Below, piece by piece: positions 43,467 through 59,179 of a DNA stretch of 64,000 bases. Location: positions 62,001 through 126,000 of the forward strand of contig PXQV01000011.1 of assembly GCA_003021175.1 (NCBI GenBank), written 5' to 3'. The notes under the pieces were generated by a model. It was given only the letters and a program-made list of their open reading frames with translations, searched no databases and was not told the DNA's origin. Within the stretch, counting starts at the first letter, position 1, and each line of letters begins with the position of its first letter. The translations under genes were made by a program, and so were the position numbers. Source of the stretch: Halobacteriales archaeon QH_7_66_36 (GTDB lineage: Archaea > Halobacteriota > Halobacteria > Halobacteriales > Haloarculaceae).

Positions 43467-43561
43467 GCCCCGGACCACGATTCGACGCCATTCTTCGACG
43501 ACCGTCTGCGAGGGCCGTCGCATACCCAACGAGTCAAGTCCCCTCAGTGGCAAGGCCGGCC

Positions 43562-43960
43562 ATGCGCATCGAACTCCGCGTCTGCAAACACTGCTACGAG
43601 GGGACACACGGGAATCCACAGAAGACCGCGGTGACGCAGGACATGGTCAACTGCGCCCGGACGGTCCGGGAGTACAAGGACCTCATCGGGCTCGACGGCA
43701 TCTACATCACGCGCGTCGAGGAGGGCGACCCGGGCGGCGCGGAGGCGCTTCCGGTCATCGTCGCCGGCATCGATGGGAAGCAGGTGACGCTGTCGGACAC
43801 GCAACTGGTGATGGAGGACGACGACGGCAACATGCTGGTGTATCCGGAGCCGGAGGACATCCTCAAGGTGCTCACGCGGAACCTCGACCAGATACAGGAG
43901 CAGACGCGACAGGACGTGACGGTCGAACTCTCCTCGGAAGGAGCGGAACTGGTCGGTTAG
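43562..43960 (+). CDS. Hypothetical protein with N-terminal Cys pair
   Basis: A 132-residue protein starting MRIELRVCKHCYEGTHGNPQ. The CKHC pair and His may bind metal. The rest is mixed alpha/beta (LIGLDGIYITRVEEGDPGGA, then TLSDTQLVMEDDDGNMLVY) with a helical C-terminus. It converges on the formate dehydrogenase operon (stops overlap by 4 nt), so it is probably not part of it. Family unknown. Confidence 0.65.
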   Translation: MRIELRVCKHCYEGTHGNPQKTAVTQDMVNCARTVREYKDLIGLDGIYITRVEEGDPGGAEALPVIVAGIDGKQVTLSDTQLVMEDDDGNMLVYPEPEDILKVLTRNLDQIQEQTRQDVTVELSSEGAELVG

Positions 43961-44955
43961 TCGTCCGCAGCGCCGACCTCGCCGCTCTCGCCGCTGCCTT
44001 CCTGTTCGAGTTGGCGCTCCCAGCGGATGCGGAGCACGTTGCCGTACATCGACAGCACCAGACCGACACCGAGCACGAGGATGCCGATGTTGATGCCGAT
44101 GGTCATCAGCAGATTCGTCGGGCCGCCGCCGATGGCCAACTCGCGGGGCACCGGATACCCCTCGTCGAGGATACTGGCCATCAGCACCGAGGCGATGCCG
44201 ATGACGGTCGCGGCGCCGAACAGCGTCGACGCCCACCCCCACGACGGGGAGAGCGTCAGCCGCTCGATGCCGGTCGTCTCGGGCTCGCCGTCGGCGTGGT
44301 ACTCGGGCACCAGCTTTCGCGGGATGTACGCCTTCGTCTCGACCGGGTAGAAGGCGGGATGGAAGCCGTGCTCGAAGATGTGGAACATGACCCCCATCAG
44401 CATGATGACGCCAAGCAGCCCGTGGAAGGTGACGAACGCCGCCGCGGCCGCCTTCGTCTGGAAGAGCGCCGCCACCCCGGTCTTGCTCCAGATGAGCAGC
44501 CCCGAGACGGCCAACAGCGTCAGCTCTGCCGAGAAGATGAACACGACGCCCTTACCGATGTACGACAGCAACGGCACCTCGTCGGCCTTGTAGCCGCCGA
44601 ACTGCCGCGCGTTCGGGTGTCGCTCGTCGGCGCGGCCGAGCATGAACTGGATGTCCTGCACGAACGCGTCGATGTCGTCCTTCCCGGGGATGATCTCGCC
44701 GAAGTTGCTCCGACCGGTCGGCGAGATGACCTGAAGCACGATCCAGAAGATGATAAGCGCGATCAGCCCGACACCGGTGATCCGGTGGACCGCCGAGACG
44801 CCGTTCGGACCGCCCATCAGCTCCATCAGCCACCACAGTTCGTCGTTGAACATGATGGCGTAGCCGCTGAAGAACAGCAGGAACACGTCCAGTCCAAGCA
44901 GTGAGTGGAACAGGGTCGTGACCCGCGTGAACTTGCCGTGGTCGAGATTGCTCAT
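43957..44955 (-). CDS. fdnI: Formate dehydrogenase membrane cytochrome b subunit
   Basis: A 332-residue membrane protein of the FdnI/cytochrome b556 type. It begins with FTRVTTLFHSLLGLDVFLLF and has about six membrane helices. Candidate heme ligands include His17, His in SAVHRITGVG and in ILFHIFEHGFH-type stretches (FHIFEHGFHPAFY), plus FVTFHGLLG. It passes electrons from the extracellular catalytic subunit to the quinone pool. Last gene of the fdh operon; overlaps the small membrane subunit by 4 nt. Confidence 0.88.
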   Translation of the reverse strand: MSNLDHGKFTRVTTLFHSLLGLDVFLLFFSGYAIMFNDELWWLMELMGGPNGVSAVHRITGVGLIALIIFWIVLQVISPTGRSNFGEIIPGKDDIDAFVQDIQFMLGRADERHPNARQFGGYKADEVPLLSYIGKGVVFIFSAELTLLAVSGLLIWSKTGVAALFQTKAAAAAFVTFHGLLGVIMLMGVMFHIFEHGFHPAFYPVETKAYIPRKLVPEYHADGEPETTGIERLTLSPSWGWASTLFGAATVIGIASVLMASILDEGYPVPRELAIGGGPTNLLMTIGINIGILVLGVGLVLSMYGNVLRIRWERQLEQEGSGESGEVGAADD

Positions 44956-45368
44956 CGGTCGTCACCTCCGTCGTCGTCGGTGATCTTCCGCGCGGCGGGT
45001 TCACCGCCGTCGGCCGCGACGGCGTCGGTCACGTCCTCGCCCGGCCGCTGCATCTGGCCGGCCAGTCGGCGGAACGCCGCCCAGTGGAGGAACACCATCA
45101 CGAGGATGAATATCCCCATGATGACGTCCGCCGCGTGGATGAGCGCGATGAGGAAGTCGAGCGCGGGAATCGAGTTGCCCGCGACCCAGTCGGCACCGAT
45201 GCCGCCATCCCCGACGCTCGGATTCACGCGATAGAGCGACTCGTAGAAGACGTTGAACCCCTGTGCCCACCAGACGGAGAACAGGGCGACGACGATGCCA
45301 ACGACGGCACTGACGCCGACGTGCCACCGCTCGTAGCCGGCCGTGTCGGGGAGCTCTTGCTCGCTCAT
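44952..45368 (-). CDS. Small membrane protein in the formate dehydrogenase operon
   Basis: A 138-residue protein with two membrane helices (about residues 18-38 and 74-96) and a charged C-tail. VWWAQGFNVFYESLYRVNPS between the helices may be an outer loop. The ATG overlaps the stop of fdnH and its own stop overlaps fdnI. A conserved accessory or anchoring subunit of the haloarchaeal complex is likely; direct evidence is lacking. Confidence 0.7.
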   Translation of the reverse strand: MSEQELPDTAGYERWHVGVSAVVGIVVALFSVWWAQGFNVFYESLYRVNPSVGDGGIGADWVAGNSIPALDFLIALIHAADVIMGIFILVMVFLHWAAFRRLAGQMQRPGEDVTDAVAADGGEPAARKITDDDGGDDR

Positions 45369-46033
45369 TCGAACTCACCGGCGTTCTCCTCGCCGAAGAT
45401 GATGTTCATCGCTTCGTCGTTGAAGAACGTCCCGCTGCCGCGGTGGTCCAGTTCGTCGGCGATCTCGCCGGGCGTCCCGACGAGGATAGCGTCCGTCGCG
45501 CACTCCTGTGCACACGCCGGGCCCTTGCCGACCTCCTGACGTTCGGTACACATCGTACACTTGTCCATCTTGCCGCCGTTGCCGACGAGACTCGCCATTC
45601 CCTCATCAGAGTCTGGGAACTGCGGGGCCCCGAACGGGCAGGCGGACAGACAGTACTGACACCCGATACACAGGTCGTCGCGCACGTCGACGAAGCCGCT
45701 CTCGTCGGCCTTGATGAGCGAGTCCGTCGGGCACACCGACACACAGGGCGCGTTCTCGCAGTGGTAACACTGCATCGGCACCGCCGTCTCGCCGGGCGAC
45801 TCGCCCTGACTCATCGCCTCCCCGCTCTGCGTGTTGAATCCCGAGGCGGCCTCTTGGCCCTCGAGCATCGTCGAGATACTGATGCGCTGTTCGTCGTGCG
45901 GCACCTCCCACGTCCGCTTGCACGAGACGACGCAACCGCCGCAGTCGATGCAGGCCTCCACGTCCGGGAAGATGCGAGTGCCCTCACCGACGCTCATCAC
46001 GCCGTCGTGCATTTGTTCTTTTCCAGTTGACAT
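45365..46033 (-). CDS. fdnH: Formate dehydrogenase iron-sulfur subunit
   Basis: A 222-residue four-cluster ferredoxin subunit. Cys sets: CIDCGGCVVSCKRTWEVP, CYHCENAPCVSVCP, CIGCQYCLSACPFG and CTMCTERQ with CAQEC. It transfers electrons from the molybdenum subunit to the membrane cytochrome. The start at 46033 lies 11 nt from the end of fdnG. No Tat signal, so it is carried across with the catalytic subunit. Confidence 0.93.
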   Translation of the reverse strand: MSTGKEQMHDGVMSVGEGTRIFPDVEACIDCGGCVVSCKRTWEVPHDEQRISISTMLEGQEAASGFNTQSGEAMSQGESPGETAVPMQCYHCENAPCVSVCPTDSLIKADESGFVDVRDDLCIGCQYCLSACPFGAPQFPDSDEGMASLVGNGGKMDKCTMCTERQEVGKGPACAQECATDAILVGTPGEIADELDHRGSGTFFNDEAMNIIFGEENAGEFE

Positions 46034-46044
46034 ATTATATCACC

Positions 46045-49000
46045 TCACTGCACCGTCGAGTTGCCGCGGACGTCGAAGTCCTTCTGGCCGCCGATGTTGT
46101 TGCGGTCCTGCGGGAACTCGATGTCCGTGTCCATGTTGAGCTCGTTCATCCGTTCTTCCGTCGCTTTCTCGACGGCGACCATCGACACCTTCGTCTCCTG
46201 CATCTGGGTCTCGACATCGTAACCGGTGGACGTGATAGCGTTCACTGAGTCGCCGATGGCGTACGGCACGTGGCCGTCGGGGTACTTGTCCTCCAAGCTC
46301 TCGCCCTTGAACACCCCGCCCCAGTGGTAGGGGAGAAACACCTCTCGGTCGTTCGGCCGGTCCGTCACGCGTGCCTTCACCAGTACCGAGCCGCGGTCGG
46401 TCGAGGAGATGATGATGAGGTCGCCGCCGTCGACATCGAGATCCTCCGCCCGTTTGGGCGTGATCTCGGCGTACATGTGCGGCTGCAGGTCGGCGGTGTG
46501 GATGTTGTTCCGCGTCTCTGCGCCACCACCCTGATGTTCGACCTGCCGGCCGGTGGTCATGATAGTGTCCAGATCCGGCCCCTCGTCGGTGTTGTGGATG
46601 ATGTCCATCGCCCGCTGCTGCTCGACCGCGTTGTTCTGGTCGAGCCGGTAGAAGTTCTTCTGCTGGCCGTTGGCGGGCCACTCTTCCACCAGTTCCGGAC
46701 TCGGACTCTCGATGGGTTCCCGGTGGACGGGCACCGTGTCGAGGAAGTTCCACACGACCGCCCGAGCCCGACCACGACCGGTCGGGGCGTCGGGCTGCCG
46801 GTAGTCGTACTCCTCGAAGGTGTCCATCTGACCGCGGACGCCCGGTGCGATCTTCCGCTCGATGTAGTCGTCGAACGCCGCGCTGCCGGTGTCCGGGTCC
46901 GCGAGCGCCTGTGCAGCGGTGTACACCGACTCGTCGTTGTCCAGCGCGCGCTTCTGTGGGATCGTGAGTTCGTCCGACTGTACGGACTGGTTCGGATCGA
47001 TGAGGCTCTCGGGCGGCGTCGTCTTCCAGCCGGGATACTCCGGAATCCCGTGAATCTGGCCGTCTTCGGCCAGATCCTCGCTGTCTGCCCAGTCGGGCAC
47101 GTACGGTGCGCGGGTGAGGTCTAACGCCTCCTCCTCGCTGTCGTACCTGTCGCCGACGGCGTCGACCGTCTCCTGAAGCGGGTACGGCTTGTCGGAGTTC
47201 CACTGGTCGGGACTGGGTGCCTGCACACCCCACCGGGTCCGGAAGTCCTGGCCCCCGTCGTTGGGGTCCATGTCGTCGTTCCAGATGATGGGTGTGCCGG
47301 GGTGGTCCTCGCCCCAGCAGGGCCACGGGAGCATCCAGTACTCCCCTTCGACGGGCGTCCCCTCGGCGCCTTGGAGGTTCTCCGAGGAGAACGCGTAGTC
47401 GTACTCCATGTGTTGCTGGATGCGCTCGGGGGTCTGCCGGTAGCCGATGGTGTTCGTCCCGAGGTTGAACTCCCGGATGACGTTCTCGTAGGTCGACTTC
47501 CCGTTGTACAGCTCCGAGCCGGCACCCCAGTCGAAGTGCTCGCCGAAGCCCAGCGCACCCGCGAGTTCCTGCATGATCTGCAGGTCGGGCTTGGAGTTGT
47601 GGGCCGGCGGTCGCACGGGTTCCGACCACTGGGTCGCGCGGTGGGTGTTCGTCAGCGAGCGGTAGTGCTCGTACTGACTCGACGCGGGCAGCAGGAGCAC
47701 CGGCGGGCCGTCCTCGTAGTCCGGGAGGACGCTCGCCACGGACGGGAACACGTCGACCACGACCAGCAGGTCGAGGTTCTCCATCCCTTCCTTCATCTGC
47801 TCCATCTCGCTGATTGAGTTCGCGGAGTGACCCCAGAAGACGGCGATCTTCACCTGATCCGGCTGGTAGGCCGGCGTCTCCTGCATCCGGTCTTCCTGAT
47901 CGAGTGCCGCCTCGAACCAGCGGGCCACCGTCAGCCCGTTCTGGAACATCATCGAGTTGGTCGCCGGGTTCTCGGCGCTCGTCTCGTCGGTGCTCGACGG
48001 GAGGTCGTCCGCCGAGATATCCTCGCTCGACTGCTCGACGTACTTTGCCGGCGGCATCAGGTCGAACCTGTCGTACAGGTCTTCGAACGAGGTGGAGCCG
48101 CTCGTGTACGGGTTCTTATCCCAGATTTCCGACCACCACTTCCAGCCGCCGGCAGTCAGTCCGTAGTAGCCGGGCAGGATGTGGCTCGCGACCGCGAGGT
48201 CGGTCGCGCCCTGCACGTTCGCGTGGCCGCGCATGACCTGCAGGCCGCCGCCCGACCGAGCCGCACTGCCGGATGCGAGGCTCGTCGCCGCGTACGAGCG
48301 GATGTTCTGGGTGCCGTTGTTGTGCTGGGTGCCGCCCATCGCCCACTCGATCTGGACGTTCGGGCGGGCCTCGTCGATCATGTCCGCGATGCGCTCGATG
48401 TCTTCCTCGGAGACCCACGTGATCTCCGAGACGGTCTCCGTGTCGTACTGGTCGAGTTCGGCGTCGATGTCCTCCCAGCCCTGCACGCGGTCGGCGAGCA
48501 TGTTCTGCCCGCTCGCGTCCGCGTCGGTGTCGAGCGCGAGCCCGTGTTTGTCGCGGAGCACCTTGATGACGCCCATCATCAGGGCAACGTCCGTACCCGG
48601 CCGGAACCGCATGAACTCGTCGGCGTGAGCCGAGGTCTTCGTGAACCGTGGATCGAGATTGAGTATCTTGCCGCCCCGCTTCTGCCCCTCGAGGATATGC
48701 TGCATCGCGATGGGGTGTGCCTCGGCGGGGTTCTGTCCGACGATGATGTTGAGATCGAAGTTCCGGTAGTCGGTGACCGTGTTGGTCATCGCGCCGTACC
48801 CCCACGTGTTCGCCAAGCCGGCGACCGTGGTGGAGTGGCAGATCCGCGCCTGATGGTCGATGTTGTTCGTCCCCATGAACGCCGCGAGCTTCCGGATCGC
48901 GTACGCCTCCTCGTTAGAGTGGTGCGCACTCCCGAGCAGCATCACGCTCTCGCGGCTGTATTCCTCCCACACCCGTTCGATCTCGCCCGAAAGCAGGTCG

Positions 49001-49407
49001 TAGGCTTGGTCCCACGTCCGCTTCTCCCAGCTTCCGTCCGCGCCACCTTCGCGGATCATCGGGTGTTTCAGTCGTTTCTCGGAGTGTTCGGTCTCGTAGA
49101 TGCCTGCCCCCTTCGAGCAGAGCGACCCATGGTTGATCGGGTGGTCCTGCCACGGCTCCATGCCGACGAACGAGTCACCGTCGCGTTCGCCGCGGAAGCC
49201 ACAGCCGACCGAACAGTAGTTACAGATCGTTTTCGACAGCTCCGTGTCCGTGTCGGTGCCGTCGACCTCTTCGCTCCCCTCTTGGAGCGCTTGGCCCGTC
49301 CCTGCGGCTCCGAGCGCGACTGCGCCCGCGAGCGCGCTCGCCTTCATGAACGAGCGCCTGTCGAGGTCGAGCGACACCGGTTCCGGATCCGGTCGTTGCG
49401 TGCTCAT
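46045..49407 (-). CDS. fdnG: Formate dehydrogenase catalytic subunit, Tat-exported, Cys form
   Basis: A 1120-residue molybdopterin enzyme. The N-terminal Tat signal LDRRSFMKASALAGAVALG is followed by the [4Fe-4S] cysteines ICNYCSVGCGF. The metal-ligand region is RICHSTTVAGLANTWGYG (Cys about residue 190), where bacterial FdnG has selenocysteine, so this is the Cys form. QNPAEAHPIAMQHILEGQ is a further family mark, and the C-terminal dinucleotide-binding domain has FLPYHWGGVFKGESLEDKYP. Oxidises formate outside the cell membrane. The molybdenum/tungsten choice is not visible. Long AT-rich upstream region suggests regulation. Confidence 0.93.
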   Translation of the reverse strand: MSTQRPDPEPVSLDLDRRSFMKASALAGAVALGAAGTGQALQEGSEEVDGTDTDTELSKTICNYCSVGCGFRGERDGDSFVGMEPWQDHPINHGSLCSKGAGIYETEHSEKRLKHPMIREGGADGSWEKRTWDQAYDLLSGEIERVWEEYSRESVMLLGSAHHSNEEAYAIRKLAAFMGTNNIDHQARICHSTTVAGLANTWGYGAMTNTVTDYRNFDLNIIVGQNPAEAHPIAMQHILEGQKRGGKILNLDPRFTKTSAHADEFMRFRPGTDVALMMGVIKVLRDKHGLALDTDADASGQNMLADRVQGWEDIDAELDQYDTETVSEITWVSEEDIERIADMIDEARPNVQIEWAMGGTQHNNGTQNIRSYAATSLASGSAARSGGGLQVMRGHANVQGATDLAVASHILPGYYGLTAGGWKWWSEIWDKNPYTSGSTSFEDLYDRFDLMPPAKYVEQSSEDISADDLPSSTDETSAENPATNSMMFQNGLTVARWFEAALDQEDRMQETPAYQPDQVKIAVFWGHSANSISEMEQMKEGMENLDLLVVVDVFPSVASVLPDYEDGPPVLLLPASSQYEHYRSLTNTHRATQWSEPVRPPAHNSKPDLQIMQELAGALGFGEHFDWGAGSELYNGKSTYENVIREFNLGTNTIGYRQTPERIQQHMEYDYAFSSENLQGAEGTPVEGEYWMLPWPCWGEDHPGTPIIWNDDMDPNDGGQDFRTRWGVQAPSPDQWNSDKPYPLQETVDAVGDRYDSEEEALDLTRAPYVPDWADSEDLAEDGQIHGIPEYPGWKTTPPESLIDPNQSVQSDELTIPQKRALDNDESVYTAAQALADPDTGSAAFDDYIERKIAPGVRGQMDTFEEYDYRQPDAPTGRGRARAVVWNFLDTVPVHREPIESPSPELVEEWPANGQQKNFYRLDQNNAVEQQRAMDIIHNTDEGPDLDTIMTTGRQVEHQGGGAETRNNIHTADLQPHMYAEITPKRAEDLDVDGGDLIIISSTDRGSVLVKARVTDRPNDREVFLPYHWGGVFKGESLEDKYPDGHVPYAIGDSVNAITSTGYDVETQMQETKVSMVAVEKATEERMNELNMDTDIEFPQDRNNIGGQKDFDVRGNSTVQ

Positions 49408-49846: not shown

Positions 49847-50542
49847 TCAGTTGAAGACGCCGCGCGTCGCCGTCGCTTTGAACGAGACGGTGACCTCGCG
49901 TCCGACTCCGAGGGCGAGACGCTCCCGACTGTCTTCGGTCACCAGCGCCAACACCGGGTCGTCGGCACCGATGTCGACGGCGACGCGGGCGATACGCTCG
50001 CCGCCTTCGATGTCCCGCACCGTTCCGGCGAACTGGTTCCGCGCGCTCGTGGTGTCCGGCACCGGCGCGTTCGTCGCCTCGTGGAGCGTCACGGCGTCGG
50101 CCGGTATCGTCAACTGGACCGTGCCGTCACCGGCGGACGGGACGAGAGCACGGAGCCGCCCGGCCGACGTTTCGACGGTCGCGAGTTCCCCGTCACGCTC
50201 GACGAGCGTGCCCGAGAGGACGGTTTCGGCGATCTCGGCGACGCCCTCGAAACTCGTCTGCACGCGGTCGAACGCCGCGAGCAACTCGTCGGCGGTTTCG
50301 GTCAGTTCGCTCCCTCCGCCGTCGGTGCCACCCCGCTGTCGGTCGACGAGCGAGCCGAACGCGGCTTCGAGTTCGACGATGCGCTGTTGCGCGTGGCCGT
50401 ACGAGCGGCCCAGAGAGTCGGTCGCCGCGTTCAACGACCCCTCGCCGTCGATTGCACGCAACAGCGTCACGTCCCGGGCGTCGACGGTCACGTCGCCGCT
50501 CCCGATGTAGGCGTCGAACTCCGTCCGAACGTCTATTCCCAT
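49847..50542 (-). CDS. ModE-like molybdate-responsive regulator (wHTH plus TOBE/Mop)
   Basis: A 231-residue protein. N-terminal ModE-type helix-turn-helix: VTLLRAIDGEGSLNAATDSL with LGRSYGHAQQRIVELEAAFG. The C-terminal half holds one or two TOBE/Mop-like domains, recognisable in SARNQFAGTVRDIEGGERIA and GVGREVTVSFKATATRGVF. It should sense molybdate or tungstate and regulate molybdoenzyme genes. It lies between the fdh operon and the HdrA-like gene, so it could control both; ATG 50542 is chosen. Confidence 0.85.
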   Translation of the reverse strand: MGIDVRTEFDAYIGSGDVTVDARDVTLLRAIDGEGSLNAATDSLGRSYGHAQQRIVELEAAFGSLVDRQRGGTDGGGSELTETADELLAAFDRVQTSFEGVAEIAETVLSGTLVERDGELATVETSAGRLRALVPSAGDGTVQLTIPADAVTLHEATNAPVPDTTSARNQFAGTVRDIEGGERIARVAVDIGADDPVLALVTEDSRERLALGVGREVTVSFKATATRGVFN

Positions 50543-50695
50543 GCGTAGCGGTATCCGAACGGCGAACAAAAGCGTTGGTTCACCGCCAATAGAACGCGGA
50601 GGGATCAAGGGGCAAACCCGTCTGACGAAGCATCGAGGGCGAATTCGGGTTCGTGAGGCGGCCAAGCGGGTTGCCCCCCGTCCGCTCCCGCAACG

Positions 50696-50703
50696 CATAA
50701 AAC
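50696..50703 (+). promoter_or_regulatory. TATA box of the HdrA/MvhD-like gene
   Basis: CATAAAAC, 23-28 nt before the paired ATGs at 50723 and 50726; leaderless transcript for the HdrA-like/torD pair. Confidence 0.6.
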
Positions 50704-50722: not shown

Positions 50723-52852
50723 ATGATGAACGTAGGTGCGTTCGTGTGCTCGTGCGGAGGCACGTGCGACATTGACTTAGAGGAGGTCCGAGAGGGCGTC
50801 GAGGGGGTCGACGTCGTCGCCAGCTCGGAGCTGTTGTGTCAGGACGGTCGTCCGGCGATGTCGCAGGTGATCGACGAGTACGACCTCGACCAGCTCATCG
50901 CGACGACGCCGGAGCCGTCGTGTCAGGAACGCATCCGCTCGCTCGCGGACGACCACGGGCTACACCCGGAGGCGACGGCGTTCGTCGACCACCGAGAGAC
51001 GACCGCGTGGGTCCACGACGAGGGCGAAGCGACCGACAAGACTGCGCGCCTGATCAACGCGAAGCGGGCCGGTCTCGCCGAAGAAGCGATCTCGCGAACC
51101 GTCTCGACGGAGGCCGGCAACCGGGTCGCCGTCGTCGGTGACGCCGACGCCGCCCGGTCGCTGTCGGACGAGGCGGACGTGACGCTCATCGCGGACGGCC
51201 GCGAGTTCGCCGACACGGAGGGGCTGGACGACGTGAACGTCGAACGGGGCCACGTCGCCGCCGTCGAGGGCTCGTTCGGCGAGTTCGAGCTGGTGGTTCG
51301 CGCGCAGGTCACCGACGACTGCATCGACTGCATGGAGTGCGTCCGCGAGGGTCCCGACGGGATGGTGACCGAGTTCCCGGTCGACATCCACCCCGAGGCA
51401 CCCGACGGCGACTGGGTTGACGTGTGTCCGACCGACGCTATCGAACTCGACGGCACGACCCGACGACTGGAGTTCGATCAGGTGATCCACCCCGGCGGCA
51501 CGTCGCGAGCGCGGAGCGGCCGCGTCGGGTTCTACACCGGGCCGGTCGACGCGGGGACCGTCGCCGCCGTCGAGTCGCATCTCGGCGGCATCGAGAAGCC
51601 GAAGTTCCTCGATCTGGAGATGGACGTGTGTGCGGCCGGCGAGTCGAGCCAGCAAGGGTGTACCGCCTGCGTCGACGCCTGCCCGCACGAGGCGGTCGAC
51701 CGGCCGGCGGTCGACGAGGTGGCGTTCGACGAGACGGCCTGTCAGAACTGCGGGGCCTGTACGAGCGCCTGTCCGACGGGTGCGGCGAAGCTCCGCGAGC
51801 CGTCCAACGAGCGGATCGCTCGCGAGGTGGAGGCGCTGCTCGAAGCCGACGAGGAGGACGACAGTCTGCTCGGTGCGCGTGACGACGCCGGCATCGAGAC
51901 GCAGGTCGTCGCGTTCGTCTGCTCCGAGCGGGCGAGCGAACGACTGCGCGCGTACGGCCGCCGCGCCGCGCGCCGCGGCGACGTGGAGTATCCGCCGGTG
52001 CTCCCGGTGCAGGTCAACTGTACCGACACCGTCGGCGAGGCACACGCGATGCACGCGCTCGCGGCGGGTGCCGACGGCGTCGCAATCGTCGGCTGTGGCG
52101 GCTCCTGTCTCCACTCCGGCCCGGACCCGAAGGCGGAGCTGGTCGAGCGGCTCAACACGGCGACCAGCGATCTGGGACTCGGCGAGCGCGTCGGCTTCTT
52201 CGCCCCCGAAGCGGGTGACCCGTCGGCCTTCGCCGCGGAACTCTCGGCGTTCGTCGAGGAGACGCTCGACGAGACGTCGGTGCCGGCGGGCAACCACGAG
52301 GCCACGGGCCGCATCGACGACGACCGGCCCAACCCCGACTTCGACAGTCACGGCTGGACGCTGGAAAGCGTCCGCGCGCTGCTCGATCACGTCGACCCGG
52401 CACGGGAGACGATCAGGGGGCTGAAGAACTTCGGCCTGCTGTCGGTGAACGACTCGTGTACGCTCACGCCCACCTGTACGAGCCTCTGTCCGACGGACGC
52501 CATCAAGCGCACGGACGACGGTCGGCTTCAGTTCAATCACGAGCGGTGTGTGAACTGCGAACTCTGCGAGGAGGGGTGTCCCGAATCCGCCATCACGATG
52601 GAGACGGGACTGGACCTCTCGCTGCTGCCGGAGCACAACGACGACGACCCGTGGACCACCGTTCACGAGGACGAGATGCTCGAGTGTATCCGCTGTGGAA
52701 CGCCGTTCACCAGCGCGGCCTCGGCCGCGAAGGTGGAAGCGGAGGTCGGCGACCGCGTGGCCGGCCTCGCGCCGGACAGCGACCACAGCGTCTTCGAGTA
52801 CTGTGGCGACTGTCGCGGACGCCTCCTCTTCGATCAGGGTGACGCGCGATGA
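50723..52852 (+). CDS. HdrA/MvhD-like multi-cluster iron-sulfur protein
   Basis: A 709-residue soluble protein. Order: HdrA-type start VGAFVCSCGGTCDIDLEEV with SSELLCQDG and TPEPSCQERIR; a reduced nucleotide-binding-like region (VAVVGDADAARSLSDEADVT); clusters around CIDCMEC (about 197), ACVDACP (311), CQNCGACTSACP (339); an MvhD/FrhD-like domain (about 395-494: VVAFVCSERASERLRAYGRR, VGCGGSCLHSG); then CTLTPTCTSLCP (578), CVNCELCEEGCP (608) and two CxxC pairs at 654 and 693. HdrA and MvhD move electrons between hydrogenase or formate dehydrogenase and heterodisulfide reductase in methanogens; here, a link to ferredoxin is inferred. Overlaps torD by 4 nt. Confidence 0.8.
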   Translation: MMNVGAFVCSCGGTCDIDLEEVREGVEGVDVVASSELLCQDGRPAMSQVIDEYDLDQLIATTPEPSCQERIRSLADDHGLHPEATAFVDHRETTAWVHDEGEATDKTARLINAKRAGLAEEAISRTVSTEAGNRVAVVGDADAARSLSDEADVTLIADGREFADTEGLDDVNVERGHVAAVEGSFGEFELVVRAQVTDDCIDCMECVREGPDGMVTEFPVDIHPEAPDGDWVDVCPTDAIELDGTTRRLEFDQVIHPGGTSRARSGRVGFYTGPVDAGTVAAVESHLGGIEKPKFLDLEMDVCAAGESSQQGCTACVDACPHEAVDRPAVDEVAFDETACQNCGACTSACPTGAAKLREPSNERIAREVEALLEADEEDDSLLGARDDAGIETQVVAFVCSERASERLRAYGRRAARRGDVEYPPVLPVQVNCTDTVGEAHAMHALAAGADGVAIVGCGGSCLHSGPDPKAELVERLNTATSDLGLGERVGFFAPEAGDPSAFAAELSAFVEETLDETSVPAGNHEATGRIDDDRPNPDFDSHGWTLESVRALLDHVDPARETIRGLKNFGLLSVNDSCTLTPTCTSLCPTDAIKRTDDGRLQFNHERCVNCELCEEGCPESAITMETGLDLSLLPEHNDDDPWTTVHEDEMLECIRCGTPFTSAASAAKVEAEVGDRVAGLAPDSDHSVFEYCGDCRGRLLFDQGDAR

Positions 52853-53475
52853 ACGACGGAGCACTCTACGAGGCGCGACTCGAACTGGTCGACTTCGTCA
52901 TCGAGACGTTCTGGGACACGCCGGAAGAGGCGTTCGTCGAGCGACTGTTGGGCGACGAACTCCAGTTCCCCGACGACTCGGTGAACGAGTCGATGGACGA
53001 GGGGTTCGACCTGCTGCGAGCGTGGCTCGACGAGAACCGCGACCGGAACGCCGTGGCGGTCCACGAGGATCTGCGACGGGAGTACACGGAGCTGTTCGTC
53101 GGGCCGCGACCGCAGGTGTTGCCCCACGAGACGCATTACCGCGACGATACGGAGTTCATCGGTGAGGGGCTGGCCGAGGTCGAGGCGAGTTACGGCGCGG
53201 CCGGCTGGGCCGCCCCCGAGGACTACCCCGAGGAGGACGACTTCATCGCCGTCGAGATGACGTTCCTCCGGTATCTCATCGACCAGCAGCGAAACGGCCA
53301 CGAGGAGGCGTTCGGCTTCGAGCGGGTGTTCATCGACGAGCACCTCTCGCAGTGGGTCGACGACTTCGTCGCGGAGACGCGCGGAGAGACCGACGACGGC
53401 CTGTTCCTCGCCGCGGCGCTCGTCTGTCGGGGCATCGTCCAGTTCGAGGACGAAATCGTCGCGCAGATGGTTTAA
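52849..53475 (+). CDS. TorD-family molybdoenzyme maturation chaperone
   Basis: A 208-residue all-helical protein of the TorD/DmsD family. The conserved DLRREYTELFVGPRPQVLPHE motif (quoted part REYTELFVGP) is followed by YRDDTEFIGEGLAEVEASYG and FIAVEMTFLRYLIDQQ. Such chaperones bind Tat signals and insert the cofactor, here most likely for FdnG. ATG overlaps the HdrA-like stop, indicating coupled translation. Confidence 0.9.
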   Translation: MNDGALYEARLELVDFVIETFWDTPEEAFVERLLGDELQFPDDSVNESMDEGFDLLRAWLDENRDRNAVAVHEDLRREYTELFVGPRPQVLPHETHYRDDTEFIGEGLAEVEASYGAAGWAAPEDYPEEDDFIAVEMTFLRYLIDQQRNGHEEAFGFERVFIDEHLSQWVDDFVAETRGETDDGLFLAAALVCRGIVQFEDEIVAQMV

Positions 53476-55643: not shown

Positions 55644-55991
55644 TCACTCCGGCCCCGGGGTTCCCGGCGGGCGCTCTTCTTCCGCTGCCTCGTCCAAGAA
55701 GGCGTTCGAGTACAGGTCGACGTGGAGCTTCAGCACCGTCGTCTCGTCGATTTCAGCCCGTTCGGCCTGTCGTTCGAGGAACGCCTCGGTCGCCTCGGTG
55801 GGGTCGTAGACGATCTCGCGGCCCTCAACTTCGAACTCCGTCTCGTGTGCGCCCGCGACGAGATGCTCGATCTCGAGGAGCGACTGCTCCACCTTCGTGG
55901 CGAGCGCGTCGTCGATCTCCTCGAAGCGTGCCTCTGCCCACTTCTCTGCGGCTTCGTACAGTCGGTCACTCACTTCGAATCGGTAGCTCAC
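55644..55991 (-). CDS. Hypothetical acidic helical protein
   Basis: A 115-residue protein starting MSYRFEVSDRLYEAAEKWAE. Mostly helical and acidic with ALATKVEQSLLEIEHLVAGA; the C-terminus ends in a Pro/Gly tail (PPGTPGPE). Its ATG overlaps the stop of the zinc-ribbon gene. Function unknown. Confidence 0.7.
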   Translation of the reverse strand: MSYRFEVSDRLYEAAEKWAEARFEEIDDALATKVEQSLLEIEHLVAGAHETEFEVEGREIVYDPTEATEAFLERQAERAEIDETTVLKLHVDLYSNAFLDEAAEEERPPGTPGPE

Positions 55992-56134
55992 AGCGACACC
56001 CCCTCGTCGGCTTCGAACTCCGGCGTCCAGACGGTCGTCTCCTCACACACCGGGCAGTGTTCGCGGCGCATCCCGCCCTCGAACGCGCTGAGGTCTATCA
56101 TCTGGCCGCACTCCTCACAGCTGTAGTACGTCAT
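55988..56134 (-). CDS. Zinc-ribbon microprotein
   Basis: A 48-residue protein MTYYSCEECGQMIDLSAFEG ending in an acidic tail. Two Cys pairs, CEECG and CPVCEE, make a complete zinc ribbon. It overlaps neighbours by 4 nt on both sides, so it is an integral part of the small-gene run. Possibly a regulator or assembly helper; unproven. Confidence 0.72.
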   Translation of the reverse strand: MTYYSCEECGQMIDLSAFEGGMRREHCPVCEETTVWTPEFEADEGVSL

Positions 56135-56397
56135 TCCGACGGCGGCCACGACTCGGGTGCCGGGTCGGACTCGCTGAGTTCGCTGTACAGCGTCAACAGC
56201 GCGCCGAGGACGACGAGCAGGACGACCAGTCCGGCGATACCGCCAAGCGCGTTCCGGCCGATGAAGTCGCCCGCCCCCGCCGAGAGCCAGTCGAACGATC
56301 CGGCGACGTTGAGCGTCGTCAACAGCAGCCAGACGAAGGCTCCCGTGACGGCGAACGTGAGTATCCGCGAGTTCTCGAGTGCTGTTCGAAGACCCAT
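56131..56397 (-). CDS. Small membrane protein
   Basis: An 88-residue protein with two membrane helices (about residues 11-32 and 50-72) and a polar C-tail SESDPAPESWPPSE. The first gene of a tightly overlapping group of three. No family recognised; probably the membrane anchor for the small soluble products that follow. Confidence 0.65.
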   Translation of the reverse strand: MGLRTALENSRILTFAVTGAFVWLLLTTLNVAGSFDWLSAGAGDFIGRNALGGIAGLVVLLVVLGALLTLYSELSESDPAPESWPPSE

Positions 56398-56684: not shown

Positions 56685-57476
56685 TTACTCAGGGTCGATC
56701 TCGTAGCCCCAATCGGCCTTCTCTGCGGCCTCGGGGAGCGGTCGGAACTCCCAGCCGTCGGGTTCCATCCCGGCTTCGTCCGGGAGGCCGACGAGCACCT
56801 GCCGGTCGGCGTAGAACATCGAGGACGGCCCGACCTCCGCGAGCCGTTCCGTCGGCCGCGTCCCCGACCCGTTGAAGAAATCGAGGTCGATGGTGTGGCG
56901 GCGCTGGAACTTGTTGAGCGCGTGGGAGGGCACGTCGCCCACGATGCCGAGCCAGTCGGTCCACCGCGTGGCGTCCCGACACGCCGCCTGCGGGTCGTCG
57001 AGTGCGCGTGCCCCCCGGTAGGTGAACGCGAGCGTCATGTCGTCCGCGTTGCCGCCGTGCGGCCCGCTGCCGGCAGCGCCGGAGCCGACCGGCCCGGAGA
57101 CGGACTCCTCGTCTCCCGGAACGCCGGGCGTCCCCGCATCCGTGTCTGTACTGCCATCGCTGCTCGGGATGCCGGGCGTCACGTTGCCCGCGCCCTCGGT
57201 GTCGTCGCTCGCCATGCCGCCCCCTGCTGGCACTTCGGTTTCGATACCGGAGCCGGCTCCGCCCTGCTCGGTCGGGATACCGACCGGTTTCCCGTCGGTC
57301 TCGCTCGGCACGCGGGGCGTGCGCTCGCCGAGGTCGTCGCCGGTGAGCGCGTCAGCGTCGTTGGTCGGCTCCTCGTCGGGGTCGCCGTCGCCCTTCCAGA
57401 GCCAGTCGCCGGGGTTCGCCGCCGGCTCGTCGTCGTCCTGTTCCGTCAGGTCGTCGAGGTCGATGCTGTCCGTCAT
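56685..57476 (-). CDS. AOR-linked hypothetical protein with disordered N-terminal half
   Basis: A 263-residue protein. Residues 1-145 are low-complexity, acidic and Gly/Ser/Pro-rich with repeats such as TPGIP, TPGVP. The folded C-terminal part begins MTLAFTYRGARALDDPQAAC and includes LGIVGDVPSHALNKFQRRHT and a Trp/Pro-rich end. Its ATG overlaps the AOR stop by 4 nt (57473-57476). I know no function; tight coupling suggests a partner or electron-carrier-binding subunit of the AOR homolog. Confidence 0.7.
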   Translation of the reverse strand: MTDSIDLDDLTEQDDDEPAANPGDWLWKGDGDPDEEPTNDADALTGDDLGERTPRVPSETDGKPVGIPTEQGGAGSGIETEVPAGGGMASDDTEGAGNVTPGIPSSDGSTDTDAGTPGVPGDEESVSGPVGSGAAGSGPHGGNADDMTLAFTYRGARALDDPQAACRDATRWTDWLGIVGDVPSHALNKFQRRHTIDLDFFNGSGTRPTERLAEVGPSSMFYADRQVLVGLPDEAGMEPDGWEFRPLPEAAEKADWGYEIDPE

Positions 57477-59179
57477 GCGATGTCGTCGGCAAGGTGGTCC
57501 AGATCGAGTCGCGCGAGCGTCGCGTCCGTCGGCACGCCGTCGGCGTCCCAGCCGCGAGCGTCGTAGTATGCGTCCAGCAGTGCCTCAAACGACGCGTCGA
57601 GGCTCGCCGGGTCGATGGGGTCGGGGAGGCGGTCGTCGGCGCGCGTGAACCCCTCTCGGACGTTGAACAGCCGGACGAGGTTCCAGACGCGCTCGCTGGT
57701 CGCCGCGAGGTCGCCGTGTGGCGCGCCGACGGCTTCGAGCCACTCCGCGCCGTCGTCGCGGAGCGTCTCGCCGGCGAAGTCGTCGGAGACCAGACTCCAC
57801 CGGACGGAGCGGGTGTCCTGTGCGTCGATCACGGCCGTCGCGGCCTCGGCGGGCGTGAACGGCCCGTCGAACGGCTCTCGCTCCACCGGACGAGCGCGCC
57901 GGTGACAGCCGCCGCGGTCGGAGGTGGCGTACGCGAGCGCCATGCTCGCGGCCCCTCGCGGGTCGTAGGCGGGCAACTCCATCCCCTTCACCGTCGGGAC
58001 GAGGCCGTCGCCGCCCAGCTCCTCGGCCGCCTCGGCGACGCCGTCCGCGAGCGCGTCGCCGAGCGTCCCGTCGCGGGCCGCGATATCATCGAGCAGCGCG
58101 CGGGCACCCGCAGGGTCGCCGAACGCGTAGTCGTCGGCGAGCAGACCCTCCTCGCTCGCGCGGACGGCCCACGCGACGGCGTTGCCCGCCGAGATGAGGT
58201 CGATCCCGAGTCGGTTACACAGTTCGCCCAGCTCGGCGACGGCGTCGAAATCGTCGATAGCCAGTCCGGCCCCGAGCGTCATCGCCGTCGCGCCGCGGGG
58301 GACCGTCTCGCCGGCGTCCGTCTCGACGCGGAACCCGCCGGCGACCGCCTCGTCCGCACGCTCGCGGCCGTGGGCGGCGGCGCGGGCGGCCTCGATACCC
58401 ACCTCGTCCGTGCCGTCGAAGCCGCGCTCCGACCAGCCGCGACTCGACAGCACGCCCGCCTCGTCGGCGAAGTCGACCGTCTCCAGCGTGTCGCTGACCG
58501 CCAGCCACCGGCCGGTGGCGTCCTCGGCGTAGCGACGCTCGTACTCCGCGCGGAGGTCAGCCAACTCGTCCGGTGGTGACCCGTGCGCGACGACGGCCTT
58601 CAGCCGTTTCGCGCCCATCACGGTGCCCGCGCCGCCGCGACCCGCGTGGTGGTCCGCGTTCGGCCCGGAGGCGATGGTGGCGTAGGAGACGCCCGCCTCG
58701 CCGGCTGGGCCGATACACGCCACCGCGCCGTCGTGTGTACGACAGGTCTCGGCGGCGTCTCGGCCCCACGTCGTGGCCGGTTCCACCGTGGCGTCGCCGT
58801 CCTCGACGACGATCCGGACCGGCTCGTCGGCCGCGCCGGTCACCAGCAGCGCGAGGTGGTCGTCGAGCGCGCCGACGAGCGCCTCGGGGAACGCACCGCC
58901 GGCGTAGGAGTCGAGGAACGCACCGGTGAGCGGCGACTTCGTCACCGCGGCGTACCGCGTCTCGCCGGGGAGCAGGCCGGACACCGGTCCGAGCGCGAAG
59001 CAGAGCAGGTTCTCCGGGCCGAGCGGATCGGCACCGGCGTCGAGTTCGTCGTAGAGATAGCGAGCACCGAGCCCCTTCCCGCCGAGATAGCGGCGGCGCC
59101 ACGCCTCCGGGACCGGCTCGCTTGCCACCGTCCGGTCGGAGAGATCGACCCGGAGCACGCGGTCGGGTGCACGGCGCAT
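57473..59179 (-). CDS. Aldehyde:ferredoxin oxidoreductase homolog lacking the Fe-S cysteines
   Basis: A 568-residue member of the tungsten AOR family. Shared motifs: RYLGGKGLGARYLYDEL, the pterin-binding NADHHAGRGGAGTVMGAKRL, VACIGPAGEAGVSYA and C-terminal FNVREGFTRADDRLP. The whole protein has only a few Cys (LCFALG, CRTHD, ACIGP, LCNRLG, GGCHRR). The CxxCxxxC set and the late Cys that bind [4Fe-4S] in classical AOR are absent: the corresponding stretches read VLSSRGWSERGFDG and RSVRWSLVSDD. Promoter at 59203. It may use the tungstopterin without the cluster. Confidence 0.85.
   Translation of the reverse strand: MRRAPDRVLRVDLSDRTVASEPVPEAWRRRYLGGKGLGARYLYDELDAGADPLGPENLLCFALGPVSGLLPGETRYAAVTKSPLTGAFLDSYAGGAFPEALVGALDDHLALLVTGAADEPVRIVVEDGDATVEPATTWGRDAAETCRTHDGAVACIGPAGEAGVSYATIASGPNADHHAGRGGAGTVMGAKRLKAVVAHGSPPDELADLRAEYERRYAEDATGRWLAVSDTLETVDFADEAGVLSSRGWSERGFDGTDEVGIEAARAAAHGRERADEAVAGGFRVETDAGETVPRGATAMTLGAGLAIDDFDAVAELGELCNRLGIDLISAGNAVAWAVRASEEGLLADDYAFGDPAGARALLDDIAARDGTLGDALADGVAEAAEELGGDGLVPTVKGMELPAYDPRGAASMALAYATSDRGGCHRRARPVEREPFDGPFTPAEAATAVIDAQDTRSVRWSLVSDDFAGETLRDDGAEWLEAVGAPHGDLAATSERVWNLVRLFNVREGFTRADDRLPDPIDPASLDASFEALLDAYYDARGWDADGVPTDATLARLDLDHLADDIA

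Follow-up and report, generated by a model that had tools for sequence, protein, structure and literature searches.

A haloarchaeal polyferredoxin derived from HdrA-MvhD, with most of the flavin domain lost and a HycF-like C-terminus, shows genetic linkage to TorD and a Tat-exported formate dehydrogenase-like enzyme

The 64,000-nucleotide stretch of the Halobacteriales archaeon QH_7_66_36 genome analysed here (the window) encodes an iron-sulfur protein, HDRX, which arose from an HdrA-MvhD chain of type Ia that lost the greater part of its flavin domain and acquired a HycF-like module of ferredoxin and Cys quartet, and which is genetically tied to the chaperone TorD and the formate dehydrogenase-like subunit FdhA. 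Its gene (50723-52852, forward strand) starts with ATG and has no internal stop, so the single 709-residue chain described in an earlier note on this DNA stands, and it is present in single copy in the source genome. The product, a FAD-less HdrA-MvhD-HycF-like polyferredoxin, is predicted to carry five or more Fe-S sites, one after another along the chain. No signal peptide or membrane segment is visible in the sequence and HDRX is therefore most likely cytoplasmic, where it would either meet FdhA prior to export or serve the cytoplasmic side of the complex. The family is already annotated but functionally uncharacterised, and represents a new combination of known parts; we found no function or mutant data for haloarchaeal or bacterial homologues in the papers searched. 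A full-length structure model built from eight close homologues had a pLDDT of 41 and supports no claim made below.

Homology to HdrA is found at residues 3 to 140 and about 299 to 376 of HDRX (NCBIfam and solved-structure searches), the former match confirming the HdrA-type N-terminus suspected previously. This N-terminal domain (residues 1-131; 50723-51115, forward strand) was delimited using the NCBIfam match, a profile comparison with HdrA structures and cysteine counts, and has conserved C9, C11 and C39. It is followed on the same strand by a remnant of the Rossmann beta-alpha-beta unit of the HdrA flavin domain lacking GxGxxG (residues 132-160, VAVVGDADAARSL; 51116-51202), what is left of the inserted HdrA ferredoxin (residues 197-245; 51311-51457) and the HdrA C-terminal ferredoxin, which we call Fd1 (residues 296-375; 51608-51847). 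Two cluster pairs had been proposed for this region; Fd1 has the eight cysteines expected of one, but the inserted ferredoxin has been reduced to one cluster of two (C200, C203 and C206 with C235). C303 precedes C320 by 17 residues, the spacing of C386 to C403 in HdrA, and probably supplies the missing first cysteine of the first Fd1 motif; judged by spacing and alignment, it may once have belonged to the flavin-domain cluster and now serve Fd1.

A profile of 19 HDRX family sequences aligns with the HdrA of M. thermolithotrophicus (5odc_A) from residue 5, with HdrA segments missing. Among HdrA proteins from related archaea used as hhalign templates, a 779-aa HdrA-MvhD fusion is co-linear with HDRX through the end of MvhD (probability 100, E 1e-52), with about 26 residues past the first beta-alpha-beta and template columns ~329-560 essentially unaligned. 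Approximately 235 columns or residues of the HdrA flavin domain are without a match in HDRX. The GxGxxG position is degenerate (VAVVGDADAA at 135-144), and one relative (locus L091) retains GGGAVG, a GGGxxG motif, at this site. Lys409 of HdrA, which stabilises FAD (PMC12054007), is replaced by D326 in the alignment to 5odc_A and is not a lysine in the relatives shown. HDRX thus keeps the type Ia order of an HdrA-MvhD fusion, with the flavin domain largely excised. The earlier suggestions of a reduced nucleotide-binding region and of an FAD region too small for a normal HdrA Rossmann domain are thus both upheld, and as no complete FAD site was found, HDRX is very unlikely to bifurcate electrons in the manner of HdrA.

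The MvhD/FlpD domain occupies residues 395 to 513 (51905-52261, forward strand) between ferredoxin domains, as indicated by a Pfam FlpD/MvhD match (PF02662, E 5e-17), and extends slightly beyond the 395-494 first assigned to an MvhD/FrhD-like domain. Of its cysteines C400, C433, C458 and C462, the last three line up with those of solved MvhD sequences and are candidate [2Fe-2S] ligands. The best fold matches of a model of this segment (pLDDT 69.6) in both Foldseek and VIA are the MvhD chains 5odh_D, 5odc_D, 7bkb_F and 8rvu_F, with Foldseek E-values of 6e-7 to 2e-6 and VIA Z-scores of 12.5 to 12.8 (rmsd 2.9-3.2 over 124-132 residues), the next unrelated row scoring 10.6. HDRX therefore resembles MvhD/FlpD in the fold and cysteine positions of this domain, but differs in carrying it internally in a larger chain and in that the cysteines have been lost in several relatives. 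The earlier note remarked that HdrA and MvhD are separate subunits in methanogens, but a chain combining the two is nothing unusual and is already known as HdrA2 or type Ia HdrA, in which MvhD is fused to the HdrA C-terminus (NF040770, PMC12054007). HDRX shares with HdrA2 the order of N-terminal HdrA domain, inserted ferredoxin, C-terminal ferredoxin and MvhD, but most of the flavin (thioredoxin-reductase-like) domain is missing, K409, GxGxxG and an HdrBC partner at the locus are absent, and a HycF-like C-terminus has been added.

This C-terminal module comprises a dicluster ferredoxin, Fd2 (residues 573-630; 52439-52612, forward strand), with seven of eight canonical cysteines and T582 in place of the missing one, and a HycF-like Cys quartet, C655xxC658-x35-C694xxC697, predicted to be a mononuclear metal site (52670-52822, forward strand). 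The four Cys motifs that had been counted beyond MvhD are present (C579/C585/C589, C609/C612/C615/C619, C655/C658 and C694/C697), although the first lacks its second cysteine, and rather than generic additional ferredoxin clusters they match a HycF-like module with a mononuclear-metal quartet. When the last 145 residues are used as a profile, HycF (7z0s_F, residues 38-164) is matched in a single stretch including the quartet (E 1.2e-20); polyferredoxins score higher in the same search, but over the ferredoxin part only. All 24 family members examined match the HycF family NF009053 at E 1e-5 or better, albeit below the curated cut-off, and the quartet is invariant in all 24 sequences. In the formate hydrogenlyase (FHL) of E. 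coli, the HycF counterpart, Cys117/120/155/158, holds a metal ion close to the interface with FdhF (PMC9474812). HDRX is thus alike to HycF/HyfH (NF009053, 7z0s_F) in having a dicluster ferredoxin followed by a CxxC-x34/35-CxxC quartet, but unlike it in that the module is the C-terminal end of a polyferredoxin, the associated FdhA is Tat-exported and complex-I-like partners are not encoded beside it; no complex-I-type hydrogenase partners were seen in the stretch of the window examined. The first Fd2 motif of the window protein and the main haloarchaeal clade (residues 579-589; 52457-52489) reads CTLTPTCxxLCP rather than CxxCxxCxxxCP, which may mean a [3Fe-4S] cluster or a ligand other than cysteine at this site.

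Conservation of the cysteines is uneven along the chain. Those of Fd1 are invariant in 20 of 20 wider archaeal and 56 of 56 haloarchaeal sequences counted, and none of the archaeal and bacterial sequences compared has lost Fd1, the quartet or, position T582 aside, Fd2. Cysteines of the N-terminal HdrA domain, inserted ferredoxin and MvhD have been gained or lost variably among relatives, those of MvhD being absent in the divergent haloarchaeal clade, loci L103 and L107 and the bacterial homologues. Judged by this pattern, the HdrA and MvhD cysteines appear dispensable and those of Fd1, Fd2 and the quartet do not. The repeated loss of MvhD and N-terminal HdrA cysteines argues against a full HdrA-to-MvhD wire being the shared core function.

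The gene downstream of HDRX encodes a TorD-family chaperone (52849-53475, forward strand; Pfam Nitrate_red_del, E 1e-26), a conserved neighbour whose ATG overlaps the HDRX stop codon (ATGA). On the reverse strand lie a ModE-like molybdate-responsive regulator (49847-50698, start codon uncertain; NCBIfam ModE/Mop), FdhA, a molybdopterin formate dehydrogenase-like subunit with a Tat signal and the active-site motif RICHSTTVAG (46045-49407), the FDH3-beta-like four-cluster iron-sulfur subunit FdhB (45365-46033; NCBIfam), a small membrane-like protein of the Fdh operon (44952-45368) and an FdhC-like cytochrome b (43957-44955; Pfam Ni_hydr_CYTB). The Tat signal of FdhA scores above the cut-off of TIGR01409, and RR motifs are found in nearly all FdhA sequences (the SRRTFAK-type signals among them were identified by eye). 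At most haloarchaeal loci cytochrome b-FdhB-FdhA is divergent from HDRX-TorD, and in a divergent haloarchaeal clade the genes are co-directional in the order FdhA-FdhB-cytochrome b-TorD-HDRX. The gene caller used for synteny was crude and score-based, and small neighbours missing from it, such as TorD labels, do not count as evidence of absence. HdrB or HdrC genes were not found in the conserved HDRX neighbourhood, and the CCG-domain proteins of the source genome are located on other contigs. An HdrBC- or hydrogenase-linked role was ruled out as the shared role because no such neighbours are present.

A homologue of aldehyde:ferredoxin oxidoreductase (AOR) in the window (57473-59179, reverse strand) is without any of the [4Fe-4S] cysteines, its CxxCxxxC region being deleted and its C-terminal cysteine replaced by aspartate; this applies to 28 of 28 window-type sequences. 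Many haloarchaea have the homologue as a conserved member of their Fdh cluster. The AOR adjoining HDRX at loci L042, L044 and L045 retains the [4Fe-4S] cysteines. Four small genes near the Fdh cluster are likewise conserved across many haloarchaea (43547-43960, forward strand; 55644-55991, 56131-56397 and 56685-57476, reverse strand), only the last of which has a Pfam domain (DUF7124).

HDRX is present in 111 of 391 Halobacteria genomes, the same set being recovered with the whole protein and the C-terminal profile, and the copies are mostly full length with 55 to 78% identity. Window-type FdhA was scored as present at E 1e-120, giving 106 positive Halobacteria genomes, 105 of which also have HDRX (Fisher p 8e-87, a value that overstates the association as related genomes are not independent). 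Six genomes have HDRX without this FdhA, five of them with another FdhA type at the locus. The sole genome among the 106 without any HDRX (G129) has an FdhA-FdhB-TorD locus (L137). A MAG with 97% identity to the window has a frameshifted HDRX copy (L009, 10001-12060), and an N-terminally truncated copy in Natrialba swarupiae has no adjacent FdhA (L008, 10001-11902). Full-length homologues with 30 to 34% identity occur in other, non-halophilic archaeal families of the phylum, and HDRX-TorD-FdhA-FdhB operons recur in distant archaeal families, sometimes with cytochrome b, MobA and ModE.

Bacterial homologues go by the name '4Fe-4S binding protein' and belong to FDH3 operons; they are co-linear over their whole length, are accompanied by TorD, and appear in PMC4464133 only as 'fer4'. 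Proteins of such FDH3/fdhGHI operons (Microvirga, Bradyrhizobium, Variovorax) are likewise encoded beside Tat-FdhA, FdhB and cytochrome b, but lack the MvhD cysteines and are accompanied by additional DUF3305 and DUF3306 genes; two alphaproteobacterial representatives also lack the HdrA-inserted ferredoxin. The Shewanella oneidensis 'iron-sulfur cluster-binding protein' SO_4506, which is co-regulated with FdhT (SO_4507) and FdhA (SO_4509) (PMC5826389, PMC2535785), looks like an HDRX homologue judging by gene position. The strongest clue to the role of HDRX is this near-invariant link to TorD and Tat-exported FdhA, which lies outside the coordinates of the ORF itself.

E. coli exports its Fdh without HDRX. 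FdhE is a protein with CX2C-bound iron that is needed only for exported Fdh (PMC10609526), and HDRX may be likened to it as a functional analogue dedicated to exported Fdh. The two have no demonstrated sequence relationship, PF04216 giving no match to HDRX, and FdhE was found in none of 21 genomes tested, 20 of which have HDRX (the E. coli control was positive). Absence of FdhE from these genomes is compatible with HDRX acting as its substitute. According to published tables Shewanella has FdhE in addition to the likely HDRX homologue, and together with E. coli, which has no HDRX, this indicates that any replacement of FdhE would be per operon and not per genome. In other organisms FdhD is regarded as indispensable for Fdh activity, and PF02634 was found in none of 11 haloarchaea tested (the source genome, G000, and 10 others), all of which have this FdhA, but in all 10 non-halophilic relatives; HDRX is therefore not a simple FdhD replacement.

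We tentatively favor HDRX as a cytoplasmic redox or maturation partner of Tat-exported FdhA that works with TorD, since the lack of a signal and the partnership with TorD fit maturation or proofreading better than electron conduction or co-export. TorD would keep the FdhA precursor in the cytoplasm, the HycF-like end of HDRX would dock on FdhA (or FdhAB) much as HycF contacts FdhF in FHL, and the HDRX clusters could pass electrons to or from unexported FdhA, either while its cofactors mature or to check its redox state ahead of Tat export, a role comparable to that of FdhE. With still greater reserve, we suggest that the archaeal and bacterial proteins may form one family of redox-maturation or proofreading factors for Tat-exported Fdh, a counterpart of FdhE evolved from HdrA-MvhD minus the flavin domain plus a HycF-like docking module. 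The genome with FdhA, FdhB and TorD but no HDRX counts against the maturation-partner reading, as do Fdh export in E. coli without HDRX and the number of clusters: maturation would hardly need five or more, a feature better explained by a conduit. HDRX would then be a soluble wire carrying formate electrons from FdhAB or the cytoplasmic face of cytochrome b via Fd2, MvhD and Fd1 to a cytoplasmic acceptor, for instance ferredoxin or the neighboring AOR, or the reverse. Fe-S sites in series, a canonical AOR following HDRX at three divergent loci and the FdhF-HycB-HycF order of FHL (PMC9474812), to which FdhA, FdhB and the HycF-like end correspond, are all consistent with such a wire. We consider this electron wire, also suggested in the earlier note, plausible but less likely than a maturation role, as export of nearly all FdhA would require a trans-membrane route, no soluble acceptor is consistently encoded nearby, the AOR homologue of window-type clusters lacks its own [4Fe-4S] cysteines, and the MvhD and N-terminal HdrA clusters have been lost in several lineages.

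The remaining explanations are less probable again. Export of HDRX through Tat together with FdhA and FdhB, lengthening the Fe-S chain outside the cytoplasm, seems improbable: the E. coli FDH-N complex is known to comprise alpha, beta and gamma subunits only, and bacterial homologues, found in aerobes, would meet an oxidising periplasm. FdhB is likewise signal-less and must hitchhike, however, and PMC10924467 describes some Tat substrates that leave the cell as heterodimers of which one partner bears the signal. A functionless, decaying relic of HdrA-MvhD might account for the missing N-terminal and MvhD cysteines and for the truncated (L008) and frameshifted (L009) copies, but is highly implausible given two ferredoxin modules and a Cys quartet invariant across archaea and bacteria and strongly conserved synteny. 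Scarcely credible is a bifurcating flavoprotein of HdrA type whose FAD site is small, for which the HdrA-like N-terminus, the beta-alpha-beta remnant and the GGGxxG of L091 could be cited, against the ~235 unmatched flavin-domain columns, the degenerate GxGxxG and D326 of the window protein and the lack of HdrBC beside HDRX.

HDRX shows the scaffold of a bifurcating enzyme, minus its flavin, re-used in haloarchaea and proteobacteria without methanogenesis. A widespread gene whose only current names are '4Fe-4S binding protein' and 'hydrogenase iron-sulfur subunit' thereby gains a candidate role, open to testing, in the assembly or wiring of respiratory Fdh, and as the Cys quartet is common to HDRX and HycF, the question of the HycF metal site becomes testable in a second system.
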